The translations under genes were made by a program, and so were the position numbers. A DNA stretch of 64,000 bases from Halalkalicoccus sp. CGA53. GTDB taxonomy: Archaea > Halobacteriota > Halobacteria > Halobacteriales > Halalkalicoccaceae. The notes under the pieces are model-generated. The model worked only from the letters and a program-made list of their open reading frames with translations, made no database searches and was not told where the DNA came from. The stretch covers positions 1,116,001 through 1,180,000 of the forward strand of contig NZ_CP144125.1 of assembly GCF_036429475.1 (NCBI RefSeq), in the 5' to 3' direction. This document shows, in pieces, positions 3,397 through 31,433 of the stretch; positions within the stretch are counted from its first letter, which is position 1; every line of letters starts with the position of its first letter.

Positions 3397-4209
3397 TTAC
3401 GCCTCGATCGCCAGCCCGGAGATCTCGAGCGCCTCCTCCGCACTCGCGTCCTCGTGGATCACCGCGCTCACGGTCCGGGCGATCGCCTCGGGATCGTCGT
3501 GCTGGAAGATCGACCGTCCCATCGAGACGCCCGCCGCCCCGGCGTCCATCGCGCCCCGGACCGCCTCGGCCGTCTCGTAATCCGTCCCCTTCGCCCCGCC
3601 GGCGATCACCACCGGTAAGGAAGTCGACTCGACGACGTGGGCGAAGCTCTCGGCGTCGCCGCTGTAGGCCGTCTTGATCACGTCCGCGCCGAGCTCCTCG
3701 CCGAGTCGGGCCGCGTGAGCGAGGTATTTCGCGTCGTGTTCGGGGTCCTGTCCCTCGAGGTTCGCTCCCCGGGCGTAGGTCATCGCCAGCACCGGAATCC
3801 CGTATCGGCCGGCCTCGTCGGTCACCCGCGCGAGGTCCTCGATCTGCTCGCGCTCGTGGTTGCTCCCGACGTTCAGATGGAGCGAGACGGCGTCCGCGCC
3901 CGCGCGGATTGCCTCCTCGACCGTGCCGGTCATCCGCTTGTCGTTCGTGTCCGGCCCGAGCGTCGTCGAGGCGTTCAGGTGGACGATGTAACCCGCGCCG
4001 TTCGCGTTCGGGTGGACCCGCGGCGCGAGTCCCTTCTGTGTCAGTACGGCGTCGGCCCCGCCGCGTGTCACCCCGTCGATCGTCTTTTCGATCTCCTTGA
4101 GCCCCTTCACCGCACCGAGGGTGATCCCGTGGTCCATCGGGACGACGAGGTACTTCTCGTCCGTGCTGATCCGCCCGAGCCGTGCGTCGAGTCCCGCGTT
4201 CGTGTTCAT
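3397..4209 (-). CDS. 2-amino-3,7-dideoxy-D-threo-hept-6-ulosonate synthase (archaeal class I aldolase)
   Basis: A 270-residue DeoC/FbaB-type TIM-barrel aldolase with PMDHG near residue 25, TYARG near 144 and the Schiff-base lysine in VIKTAYSG (Lys179). In archaea lacking the normal first two shikimate steps, this enzyme makes the amino-heptulosonate precursor that the archaeal dehydroquinate synthase II then converts. Placement next to trpCBA supports this over a glycolytic aldolase. The ATG at 4209 was preferred to one six codons upstream because CTTAAG in the trpA tail sits at TATA distance. No dehydroquinate synthase II gene is in the window. Confidence 0.82.
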   Translation of the reverse strand: MNTNAGLDARLGRISTDEKYLVVPMDHGITLGAVKGLKEIEKTIDGVTRGGADAVLTQKGLAPRVHPNANGAGYIVHLNASTTLGPDTNDKRMTGTVEEAIRAGADAVSLHLNVGSNHEREQIEDLARVTDEAGRYGIPVLAMTYARGANLEGQDPEHDAKYLAHAARLGEELGADVIKTAYSGDAESFAHVVESTSLPVVIAGGAKGTDYETAEAVRGAMDAGAAGVSMGRSIFQHDDPEAIARTVSAVIHEDASAEEALEISGLAIEA

Positions 4210-4234
4210 GGTGGGAGTCCTTGGCACAGCGCTC

Positions 4235-5074
4235 TTAAGGCCGTTCCGCTCGCGGCGTGCGTTGCTCGAACCCCTTTTCTGTACCTCGCTTCAGCTCTCT
4301 CGCCTTCGCCTCCAGGCGTTCTTCGACCGTCTCCTCGCCGTCGCCCTCGGCGACGATGTCGACGAGCGCGCTGCCGACGATGATCCCGTCGGCGCCCCCG
4401 GCGACGATCTCCGCCGCCTGCTCACCCGTGCTGATCCCGAAGCCGACGGCCTTCGGCACCGGCCAGTCGGCCACGCGGTCGAGGCTCTCGCTGGTCTGAT
4501 CGCTCACGTCCGCCTTCGCGCCGGTCACCCCGAGACGTGCCTGCACGTAGAGGTAGCCCGAGACCTGCTCGCGGATCCGTTCGAGCCGCTCGCCGCGCGT
4601 CGTCGGCGCGACGATGAATATCAGGTCGAGGCCGTGTTCGTCACACGCCTCGCGCAGCGGGTCGGCCTCTTCTGCCGGTAAGTCGGGAACGACGAACCCC
4701 TCTATCCCGACCGCCGCCGAGCGCTCGACGAACGGCTCGGGACCCTCATCGATACCGAACTGGTAGATCAGGTTGTAGTAGGTCATGCAGACCAGCGGTG
4801 CCGAGACGTCGAGATCCGAGACGAACTCGAAGAAGCGCTCGGGCGTCATTCCCGCGTCGAGCGCCCGGGTCACCGCGCCCTGGATCGTCGGGCCTTCCGC
4901 GATCGGCTCCGAGAAGGGCAGACCGAGTTCGATCACGTCCGCGCCGCCGCGGTCGAGCGCCTCGACGTAGCGAAGCGAGGAGTCGTAGTCGGGGTCGCCC
5001 GCCGCGAGGTAGGGGACGAACGCCGGACCCCCCTCGAAGGCCGCCGCGAGCGCCGCGCTGTTCGCGCGGGTCAT
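4235..5074 (-). CDS. trpA: Tryptophan synthase alpha chain
   Basis: A 279-residue TIM barrel that cleaves indole-3-glycerol phosphate to indole and glyceraldehyde 3-phosphate, passing indole to TrpB. The catalytic Glu49 (VIELG) is present. The usual PFSDPxADGP loop reads [10 protein letters not shown], so the residue equivalent to catalytic Asp60 is Glu. The phosphate-binding GFGIST and [12 protein letters not shown] segments are intact. The start overlaps the trpB stop by four bases (ATGA), so translation is probably coupled. It is the last trp gene of the trpCBA unit. Confidence 0.95.
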
Positions 5075-6324
5075 CGACCGACTCCCTGAAAGACGTCCAT
5101 CTCGGGCGCGCCCTCGATCTCCCTTTCACTCGTCTCCTCGATCACCGACTCGAGGTCCTTGTCGCCCCGGCCGGAGACGTTGACGATCACGATCTCGCCC
5201 AGGTCCCCGTAGTTTTCGTGGAGGTAGCCGAAGGCGTGGGCGGTCTCCAGCGCCGGGATGATTCCCTCCTCCTGGGAGAGCCGGTGGAACGCCTCCAGCG
5301 CCGCGTCGTCGTCCACCGTGACCGGCGTTACCCTACCGGTGTCGACGAGGTGGGCGAGTTCGGGGCCGACGCCGGCGTAGTCCAGCCCCGACGAGACGCT
5401 GTGGGACTCCATGATCTGGCCGTCGCGGTCCTGGAGGATCCGCGTTCGCGCGCCGTGGAGCACGCCCTCGGTGCCGGTCGAGAGCGACGCGGAGTTCGGT
5501 GCGACGCCGCGTTCTTCGTCGACGCTGAGAGAGGAGCCGCCCGCCTCCACGGCGTAGAGCTCTACTCCGTCGTCCGAAACGAAGTGGTGAAACGCCCCCA
5601 TCGTGTTCGAGCCGCCGCCCGCGCAGGCGAGTACGGAGTCAGGAAGCCGACCCGCCTTCTCCAGCACCTGTTCGCGCGCCTCCTCGCTGATGACTGCTTG
5701 AAAGTCGCGGACCATCCGCGGGAACGGGTGCGGGCCGACGACGCTCCCGATCACGTAGTGCGTCGTCTCGACACTGGCTGCCCAGTCGCGCATCGTCTCG
5801 CTGATCGCCTCCTTGAGCGTACCGCGCCCCGCGGAGACGGGATTCACCTCGGAACCATTGAGTCTCATCCGGAAGACGTTCGGGCGCTGGCGGACGATGT
5901 CGCGCTCGCCCATGTAGATCTCACAGGGGAGGTCGAGGTGGGCCGCCGCCATCGCCGTCGCGGTGCCGTGCTGGCCCGCACCGGTCTCCGCGATGATTCG
6001 TTCTTTTCCCATGTACTTCGCGAGCAGCACCTGTCCGAGCGCGTTGTTGAGCTTGTGCGCCCCGCCGTGGAGTAAGTCCTCGCGTTTCAGGTAGACGTCG
6101 CGTCCGTAGCGCTCGGAGAGCCGATCGGCGCGCTGGAGCGGGAGCGGCCGCCCACCGAAATCAGCGAGGCGCTCGCGGAATTCGTCCACGAACCCGTCCT
6201 CGTTCTCGAGGACGTAGCGTTCGTAGGCGTCCTCTAGCTCCTCGATCGCCGGCATCAACGCCTCCGGAACGAACTGGCCGCCGTACTCGCCGAATTTGGG
6301 GTTGCTCTCGGTACCGTAGCTCAT
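5071..6324 (-). CDS. trpB: Tryptophan synthase beta chain
   Basis: A 417-residue PLP enzyme that condenses indole with serine to make tryptophan. The PLP lysine is in [11 protein letters not shown] (Lys91). The AETGAGQHG loop and the phosphate-binding CAGGGSN are present. The N-terminus [11 protein letters not shown] marks the standard TrpB1 type that works with TrpA rather than the stand-alone TrpB2. The start ATG overlaps the trpC stop (ATGA). A much longer in-frame extension upstream is only a trpC shadow. Confidence 0.96.
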
Positions 6325-7082
6325 CGTTCCGCCTCCACGAGCGCCCGCGTGTTCTCCCGCACGTCGCCGTCCATGATCGCCGTCCCGACGAGCAGCGCGT
6401 CCGCACCAGCCTCGCGCATCCTCTGTACGTCTCCTCTGTACCGGATCCCGCTCTCCGCGACGAGCGTCACGTCCTCCGGTGCCTCCCGCGCGACCCGCTC
6501 GAACGTCGAGCGGTCGACCTCCAGCCGGGCGAGGTCGCGGTTGTTCACGCCGACGATCTCCGCACCTGCGTCGAGGGCGTCTTCGAGCTCCGGTATCGAG
6601 TGCACCTCGACGAGCGGCTGGAAGCCGCGGGCCTCGGCCATACGGACGAGGCCGGGAAGGTCGTCGACGAACCTGGCGATCAGTAGGACGAGGTCGGACT
6701 CGACGGCGTCGAGCTGCGCCTCCGAGAGCACGAAGTCCTTCCTGAGGACCGGGACGTCGACCGCCTCGCGGATCCGTTCCAGGTTTTCCGTCGATCCCCC
6801 GAAGTGCTCGGGTTCGGTGAGCACCGAGAGTGCGGCCGCCCCACCGGCGACCATCTCGCGGGCGAGGTCGACCGGATCGTCCCTCCGTACCCCCTCGGTC
6901 GTCGGACTCGTCGGCTTTACCTCGGCGATCACCGGTACGTGGCCGCCGGCTTCCGCCGCTTCGAGCGCCCCTTCGAACGATCGTGCGTCGACCGAGATCG
7001 GCTCTCGGTCGGGCACCTCGCGCTCGCGCGCCGCGTCGAGGATCGACTCGACGGCCGGCGCGAGCTCCTGGTTGGCGTTCAT
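6321..7082 (-). CDS. trpC: Indole-3-glycerol phosphate synthase
   Basis: A 253-residue (beta/alpha)8 enzyme that converts CdRP to indole-3-glycerol phosphate, the substrate of TrpA. The family signature appears as IAEVKPTSP (catalytic Lys56), followed by LRKDFVL and VESGI. It is the first gene of trpCBA. The ATG at the right end was chosen because it starts the conserved N-terminal helix and sits just beyond a promoter with two TGTACA boxes. Anthranilate-forming genes (trpE, G, D, F) are not in this window. Confidence 0.95.
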
Positions 7083-7085
7083 CGT

Positions 7086-7118
7086 TGTACATCGTTGGAC
7101 TAGTTTGTACATAAGGCT
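7086..7118 (-). promoter_or_regulatory. trpCBA promoter with two TGTACA (TRP-box-like) operators
   Basis: Reading toward trpC there is a TATA-like CCTTATG (about 7112-7118), then two palindromic TGTACA hexamers at 7106-7111 and 7086-7091. They are spaced exactly 20 bp start to start, about two helical turns. The first abuts the TATA box and the second falls near the expected transcription start. TGTACA is the consensus TRP box bound by the tryptophan-sensing repressor TrpY in Methanothermobacter. The hexamers are seen directly; a TrpY-like mechanism in this halophile is inferred. No TrpY gene is in the window. Confidence 0.55.
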
Positions 7119-7163
7119 TCCGTCGTCGCCACGTTCAAGCAGTGGACGGCCTTCGGAGGCGGT

Positions 7164-7628
7164 ATGCACCACGACGGGACGACCGGCGTCTTCGCCCGCG
7201 AGTTCGACGCGCTCGGCCGGTGGGTACAGATCGGCGTCGCCTCGGGGAACGTCATCAGCGTCTCGTTCCCGACCGAACCGGAGGCCGAGTCCGAGGAGAA
7301 CGCGGTGCTGGACCGGATCGGGGCGTATCTTGACGGCGAGGAGGACGCCCTCTCGCACGTTGAGGTGGCGCTCACGGTTCCGACCGATCAGCGCACGGTG
7401 TTAGAGACGGTCAGGGCGATCCCGTACGGTCAGGCGGTGGGCGTCGACCAGGTCGCGCGGATGGCGGCCGGCTTGGAGGACGACGAAGGTGGCTGGGAGG
7501 TCGTCGAGCGTGCGCTCTCCGCGAACCCCGTTCCGATCCTGATCCCGGATCACCGCGTCGTCGACGGGCCGAGCGGCGCGCCCCGCGAGGTGGTCTCGAA
7601 ACTGCAGTCGCTGGAGGGCTTGGCGTGA
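7164..7628 (+). CDS. MGMT-domain protein lacking the active cysteine (alkyltransferase-like)
   Basis: A 154-residue protein whose C-terminal half has the O6-alkylguanine-DNA alkyltransferase fold signature: [17 protein letters not shown] (recognition helix) and then [13 protein letters not shown]. In true MGMT/Ogt the last motif is PCHRV. Here the reactive Cys is replaced by Asp129, so the protein cannot take alkyl groups by the normal route. Alkyltransferase-like proteins with such replacements bind damaged DNA and flag it for excision repair, so that role is inferred. It overlaps the next small gene by GTGA. Confidence 0.8.
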
Positions 7629-30272: not shown

Positions 30273-31433
30273 TCACCGCGGACCGATCCGGTCGGTCGCG
30301 AGCAACCCCCCGACCGTGACCACGAGCATCGCGAGCGAGACGGCGAGGCCCTGGAAGACCGCGTCGTAGGCGAACCCCCGTTCGACGAGTTCGCCGACGA
30401 GCCAGCTCCCGAGCGACTGACCGAGCATCATCCCGCCGCTGAACATCGCGTACGCACCGCCACGGTGCTCGTCGGGGAACGCCGAGAGCAACACCGCGTC
30501 TGCGGCGGGGTAGAGGCTGTGGATGACGTAGCCGACGAGCGCGCTCACGACGATGATACCGAGGAGGCTCTCGGTGACGGTGAGAAGCAGGACGCTCCCG
30601 ATGAACGTGCCGATGATACCGGCGAGGTAGGGCACGCTCGGGACGCGGTCGACGAGGATCCCGCTCACCCAGAAGGCGGGAACGCCGGCGGCGAAGACGA
30701 CCGTGAGGAGGTTTCTCGCCGTTCCTGGCGTGAACCCACGGGCCTCCATGTACGAGGGGTAGAAGTTGAACAGCCCCTGCCAGACGAAGCTCGTCGCGCC
30801 GAAGACCACCACCCCGAGGACGATCAGCGACCACTCCGCACGGATCGCTCCCAGGAAGTCCCGGTCCGCGCCGCTCGCCGCGGGGAACTCCGTTCGGCGG
30901 GCCATGAGGGTGAAGTAGACCGTCGAGGCGAGCGCGCCGAGACCGATGGCGACGAACACGAGCCGCCAGGAGACGAACAGCGCGAGCGAGACCATCGGCG
31001 CGGCGATCACCGCCGAGAGCTGTGCGGCGGTGCCGTGGATACCGAGCGCCCGACCCACCCGTTCCGTGTACAGCTCCGCGATCAGCGGGTGTGCAGCGAC
31101 GAAGTACGCCCCGCTCGCGGTTCCCAGTAGAACCGCGCCGATCGCGAGCGTGGCGATCGAATTCGCGAGCGTCGCGACGACCGACGAGAGGGTGAGCATC
31201 ACGCCTGTCGCGAGCACCATCGTGTGCCGGGGGTAGATCGTCAGCAGGTAACCCGTCGGAATCCGGGGGATGGCGCTCCCGACCCAGACGAGCGTGACGA
31301 TCAAGCCGACCGTGGCCGGACCGACTCCGAAGGCGTCCTGTAGCGGCTCGACCAGCGGCGCGAAGACCACCCTCGCGAGGTTCACGAGGAAGACCATCGC
31401 ACAGAGCGAGCCGAAGACGCCTCTCCGTGTCAC
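30273..31433 (-). CDS. MFS transporter
   Basis: A 386-residue protein with twelve membrane helices. The GYLLTIYPRHTMVL loop after helix 2 is in the position of the MFS A motif. It is similar in layout to nitrate/nitrite and oxalate/formate type permeases, but the substrate is unknown. Just upstream (31455-31465) is a small palindrome GGGTT-C-AACCC in the promoter region. The 166 bp downstream and 162 bp upstream hold no other gene I can see. Confidence 0.85.
   Translation of the reverse strand: MTRRGVFGSLCAMVFLVNLARVVFAPLVEPLQDAFGVGPATVGLIVTLVWVGSAIPRIPTGYLLTIYPRHTMVLATGVMLTLSSVVATLANSIATLAIGAVLLGTASGAYFVAAHPLIAELYTERVGRALGIHGTAAQLSAVIAAPMVSLALFVSWRLVFVAIGLGALASTVYFTLMARRTEFPAASGADRDFLGAIRAEWSLIVLGVVVFGATSFVWQGLFNFYPSYMEARGFTPGTARNLLTVVFAAGVPAFWVSGILVDRVPSVPYLAGIIGTFIGSVLLLTVTESLLGIIVVSALVGYVIHSLYPAADAVLLSAFPDEHRGGAYAMFSGGMMLGQSLGSWLVGELVERGFAYDAVFQGLAVSLAMLVVTVGGLLATDRIGPR

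Follow-up and report, generated by a model that had tools for sequence, protein, structure and literature searches.

Organization of the trpCBA locus and its promoter

The window analyzed here, a 64,000-nucleotide stretch of the Halalkalicoccus sp. CGA53 genome, contains a trpCBA operon headed by trpC and followed by a gene for a DeoC/LacD-family aldolase, all on the minus strand (Table 1). In Halobacterium salinarum, the trpCBA operon includes the gene OE1472F (PMC4162585). Judging from gene order and position, the aldolase is probably the counterpart of OE1472F and thus the first enzyme of the aromatic pathway.

Table 1. Genes and promoter elements of the trpCBA locus, and the gene of the candidate regulator (window positions unless a contig is given)
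Feature	Position	Strand	Basis and remarks
DeoC/LacD-family aldolase	3397..4227	-	PF01791
trpA, tryptophan synthase alpha	4235..5074	-	PF00290, 9.6e-90
trpB, tryptophan synthase beta	5071..6324	-	PF00291 and operon position
trpC, indole-3-glycerol phosphate synthase	6321..7082	-	PF00218, 1.8e-67; first gene of the operon
trpC start codon, ATG	7082-7080	-
Box 3, proximal TRP-like TGTACA	7086..7091	-	sequence and alignment; expected start of a leaderless transcript
Box 2, degenerate middle box AGTCCA	7096..7101	-	sequence; class consensus nGTnCR; 10 bp from either flanking box
Box 1, distal TRP-like TGTACA	7106..7111	-	sequence search; kept in the haloarchaeal alignment
TATA-like element, CTTATG	7110..7115	-	sequence and conservation; class consensus CTTATG; putative role
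BRE-like element, CGGAAG	7117..7122	-	sequence and conservation; class consensus CGCAAG; putative role
Gene divergent from trpC	7164..7628	+	match to PF01035
TrpY-family gene	G000:C2:645840-646331 (locus L160)		NF053754 match

On the coding strand, the trpC promoter reads CGGAAG-C-CTTATGTACA-AACT-AGTCCA-ACGA-TGTACA-ACG-ATG, with only 3 bp (ACG) between box 3 and the start codon. The original prediction, that two TGTACA palindromes lie exactly 20 bp apart in this promoter, is borne out by the start-to-start spacing of the two outer boxes. Since the AGTCCA box sits exactly midway between them, the pitch of the array is 10 bp. The accompanying statement that the boxes lie just downstream of the TATA-like element needs to be amended for the distal box, which shares 2 bp with the 3' end of CTTATG and is therefore not purely downstream of it.

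Conservation of the array in haloarchaea

To place the array in a wider context, 80 named haloarchaeal trpC loci were fetched and their upstream regions aligned and compared. The resulting promoter consensus is CGCAAG-Y-CTTATGTACA-nATnn-GTnCR-TTAR-TGTACA-nTA-ATG, embedded in unconserved flanks. Most positions of the outer boxes are 80–100% conserved (in the first box, base 4 is A in 74%), and the degenerate middle box keeps its G, T and C in 97, 94 and 98% of the sequences, respectively. When up to two mismatches were allowed, pairs of TGTACA boxes were found at a spacing of 20 bp in 78 of the 80 promoters and at 10 bp in 45 of the 80, compared with only 0–8 pairs at each of the other spacings from 7 to 33 bp, and with about 0.1 pair per 79 random windows taken from the same trpC loci. 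The exact pattern TGTACA-N5-GTNCR-N4-TGTACA is present in 67 of 195 genomes of the class, at a single place in each, while its reversed control gave 0 matches; trpC coordinates were listed for 40 of these matches, and each of the 40 precedes trpC on its own strand, 38 of them within 18 bp of the matched trpC start.

Two further occurrences of 10-bp pairs were encountered. In a small-genome relative (G021), a TGTACT/TGTACA pair is located at the trpC-trpB junction (around position 1485 of locus L352). A recurrent pair in family f4 (TGTACCTGCTTGTACAT) was dropped, as it is coding sequence for the peptide MYKQVQ.

Rarity in the genome and the second trp operon

TGTACA as such shows a mild enrichment in the window (6 sites vs. 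1.64 expected), and this is what might suggest that the array arose by chance or from local base composition. However, a pair of TGTACA boxes with a gap of 10–20 bp occurs only once in the entire 4.04-Mb genome, at trpC, and it is conserved class-wide, which refutes that explanation and leaves it with a practically negligible probability. A genome scan for the degenerate three-box pattern with up to two mismatches likewise gave trpC as the sole perfect match, with about as many matches in total as in the reversed control. The window's four other single TGTACA sites are at positions 31067, 36701, 50273 and 55265. A phased match at genome position 2956821 was rejected as a promoter array, being inside a coding sequence that resembles gcvPB.

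Boxes spaced at multiples of 10 bp were found in this genome only at the trpC promoter and at the promoter of a second trp operon, trpDFEG. In the trpD promoters, the TATA-like element CTTAAG is followed downstream by boxes of the TGTAC type (TGTACG-N4-TGTACA-N14-AGTACA in this genome), and among 30 trpD loci pairs are seen at 10 bp in 27, at 20 bp in 25 and at 30 bp in 25. The distance from the boxes to the TATA-like element differs between trpD and trpC promoters.

These observations bear on a simpler explanation, in which the conserved block is nothing but a leaderless gene's core promoter (BRE, TATA and initiator) plus its translation start, with no operator role. The CGCAAG-CTTATG portion does resemble BRE and TATA, and the ATG falls within the conserved block. 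Yet conservation extends far downstream of the TATA element with an exact 10-bp repeat, the block was not found in any other promoter of the genome, and the trpD promoters combine the same boxes with different TATA distances. We consider a purely core-promoter origin very unlikely.

Trp promoters of non-halophilic relatives

The survey was extended to 76 other genomes of the phylum, in which the first trp gene was located and its upstream region scanned. In these 76 non-halophile promoters, pairs were found at 10 bp (29), 20 bp (27) and 30 bp (20), while other spacings gave 0–7. For example, the non-halophilic relative at locus L202 carries TGTACAATGATGTCTAATGATGTACA upstream of trpC, with the same 20-bp geometry as in the window. 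Families f20, f21, f22 and f24 are mostly without recognizable arrays in their trp upstream regions. The trp loci of three genomes without a convincing TrpY-family member (G316, G325 and G334) show no array either, three genomes being too few to weigh.

Taken together, these comparisons make it highly probable that the box array is a real trp operator used across the phylum, by haloarchaea throughout and by many methanogens related to them. Such an operator would consist of three TGTACA-type sites at a pitch of one helical turn (10 bp), beginning at the TATA element and reaching up to the trpC ATG.

A TrpY-family protein as the candidate regulator

In Methanothermobacter, TrpY binds TRP boxes and represses trp genes with tryptophan, and the trpY and trpE promoters overlap (PMC6737238). 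The same paper describes the function of TrpY homologues on the haloarchaeal branch as unexamined, and states that the Thermococcus homologue does not regulate trp (PMC6737238). Our literature search found no description of TGTACA boxes in haloarchaea, and no paper stating the TGTACA consensus of the TRP box. That consensus reportedly goes back to Xie and Reeve in 2005.

The Halalkalicoccus genome encodes one TrpY-family protein, which matches NCBIfam NF053754 with a score of 236.7 bits (cut-off 180). Thus, neither of the outcomes that had been named as fatal to TrpY-like control, a lack of box conservation upstream of trpC in relatives and the absence of a TrpY-type protein, occurred. The protein has an N-terminal HTH-like segment and a C-terminal ACT-like domain, the latter giving only sub-threshold matches in Pfam (PF13840, E=0.0013). 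A search of the genome with the ACT-domain profile PF01842 returned only enzymes, regulatory subunits and one ACT protein resembling the homoserine-dehydrogenase-linked type; this is no evidence of TrpY absence, because TrpY scores below the PF01842 cut-off. The TrpY-family gene closely follows hisB and shares its strand (region 1489-2661 of locus L160, minus strand), a position from which it may be cotranscribed with the histidine gene. It is unlinked to trp, and no boxes were seen in its own promoter.

Of 120 genomes surveyed in the phylum with a haloarchaeal query sequence, 116 have a member of the TrpY family, almost always in single copy; the family assignment rests on the matches and the NF053754 score, not on the query. 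The HTH segment of the array-bearing lineages broadly follows SGxIEIPxTQxAxExxVDRRVV, while that of f21 and f24 differs. TrpY-family genes are also present in the mostly array-negative families f20, f21, f22 and f24, and in f24, the only family to show this arrangement, the gene adjoins trpC in divergent orientation (L193, L194, L195 and L196). This resembles the trpY-trpE arrangement of Methanothermobacter, in which trpY is adjacent to and divergent from trpE. No TGTACA boxes were found in the divergent trpY-trpC intergenic region of f24, whose TrpY-family protein may use another operator.

Comparison with known archaeal systems

The arrangement described here is similar to the TrpY/TRP-box control of trpEGCFBAD in Methanothermobacter thermautotrophicus in that TGTACA boxes stand in a trp promoter, where they may cover the TATA element and the start, and in that a TrpY-family protein is encoded in the genome. 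It differs in that trpY is next to hisB and has no boxes of its own, instead of being divergent from trp and autoregulated, and in that there are two separate trp operons, each with an array. A further possible difference is the geometry, with at least three boxes at exact multiples of 10 bp in this genome.

A second precedent is Tar (TK0271), which regulates trp together with other aromatic operons in the archaeon Thermococcus kodakarensis. However, Tar acts as an activator and has its binding site, TGGACA-N8-TGTCCA, upstream of BRE/TATA (PMC6737238), whereas the boxes here are TGTACA at a 10-bp pitch, reaching from TATA to the start codon, and the Tar palindrome is absent from the trpC upstream sequence of this genome.

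The third is LrpA2 (trh1), a candidate for regulating the aromatic amino acid genes of the haloarchaeon H. salinarum. There, a lack of aromatic amino acids induces the trp genes and also strongly induces LrpA2 itself (14.9-fold), and LrpA2 was proposed to regulate the biosynthesis of these amino acids (PMC4162585). It is conceivable that the array does serve as a trp operator but has a different reader, such as an Lrp-family protein of the LrpA2 type. The Lrp ligand domain (PF01037) is matched nine times in the Halalkalicoccus genome, and helical-turn spacing is common among the binding sites of Lrp proteins. By contrast, none of the upstream regions of the nine PF01037 loci contained a phased TGTACA array, so that the Lrp-type genes of this genome are without the boxes in question. 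TGTACA is the known TrpY box and no pairing of Lrp with TGTACA is known, nor do we know of any operator for LrpA2. The near-universal occurrence of the TrpY family in the phylum is also what such a widespread operator requires of its reader. We therefore regard reading by another regulator as unlikely.

Probable reading of the operator

With these points in view, the TrpY-family protein is the best candidate for the reader of the array, and on the available sequences probably the right one. Membership in the family is not proof of function, because the Thermococcus homologue leaves trp unregulated, and distribution alone cannot decide who reads the operator, because several array-negative lineages also carry TrpY. 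Counted against TrpY are the TrpY-bearing families f20, f21, f22 and f24, which mostly lack arrays (though the HTH segment of f21 and f24 differs), and the haloarchaeal trpY gene, which is free of boxes and unlinked to trp. The LrpA2 response in H. salinarum is counted on the same side, as is the statement, in a recent paper citing Large et al. 2007, that the trpCBA promoter of Haloferax volcanii is not tightly regulated (PMC13147458). Counted in favor, besides the conserved array and the family match, are the divergent trpY-trpC adjacency in f24 and the induction of trp in H. salinarum without aromatic amino acids.

If TrpY is the reader, tryptophan would be the ligand, and when it is plentiful, the TrpY-family protein would bind the boxes as neighboring units along a single DNA face. 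Binding of several regulator units to one face would fit the array because its pitch equals one helical turn. The bound protein might then block access of TBP/TFB and RNA polymerase, and such repression by occlusion would fit because the boxes would cover TATA and the expected start site. Occlusion would shut off trpCBA together with the aromatic-pathway aldolase gene behind it, and the same protein would be expected to shut off trpDFEG via its own phased boxes.

A broader scenario, which we put forward tentatively, is that the trp operator ancestral to the archaeal lineage spanning Methanothermobacter and Halobacteriota is a TGTACA array phased at 10 bp and read by TrpY. It would have been kept across haloarchaea and many methanogens despite changes in operon structure and trpY linkage, and would act by cooperative, polymer-like binding of TrpY side by side on one DNA face. 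Reading of the array by TrpY would in itself carry TrpY/TRP-box control beyond a single methanogen and into much of a phylum, and the array could yield a native tryptophan-repressible promoter. The results bear on the control of tryptophan synthesis in haloarchaea and provide a defined operator of precise geometry, with two operons as targets and a single candidate gene, each of which can be tested in H. volcanii.

The gene divergent from trpC

The gene on the other side of the trpC promoter matches the DNA-binding domain of O6-methylguanine methyltransferases. In this genome's copy, the product has IPDHRV where the catalytic PCHR is expected, and because of this replacement it resembles alkyltransferase-like proteins, which lack the acceptor cysteine. 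At 72 of the 80 haloarchaeal trpC loci, a relative is present.
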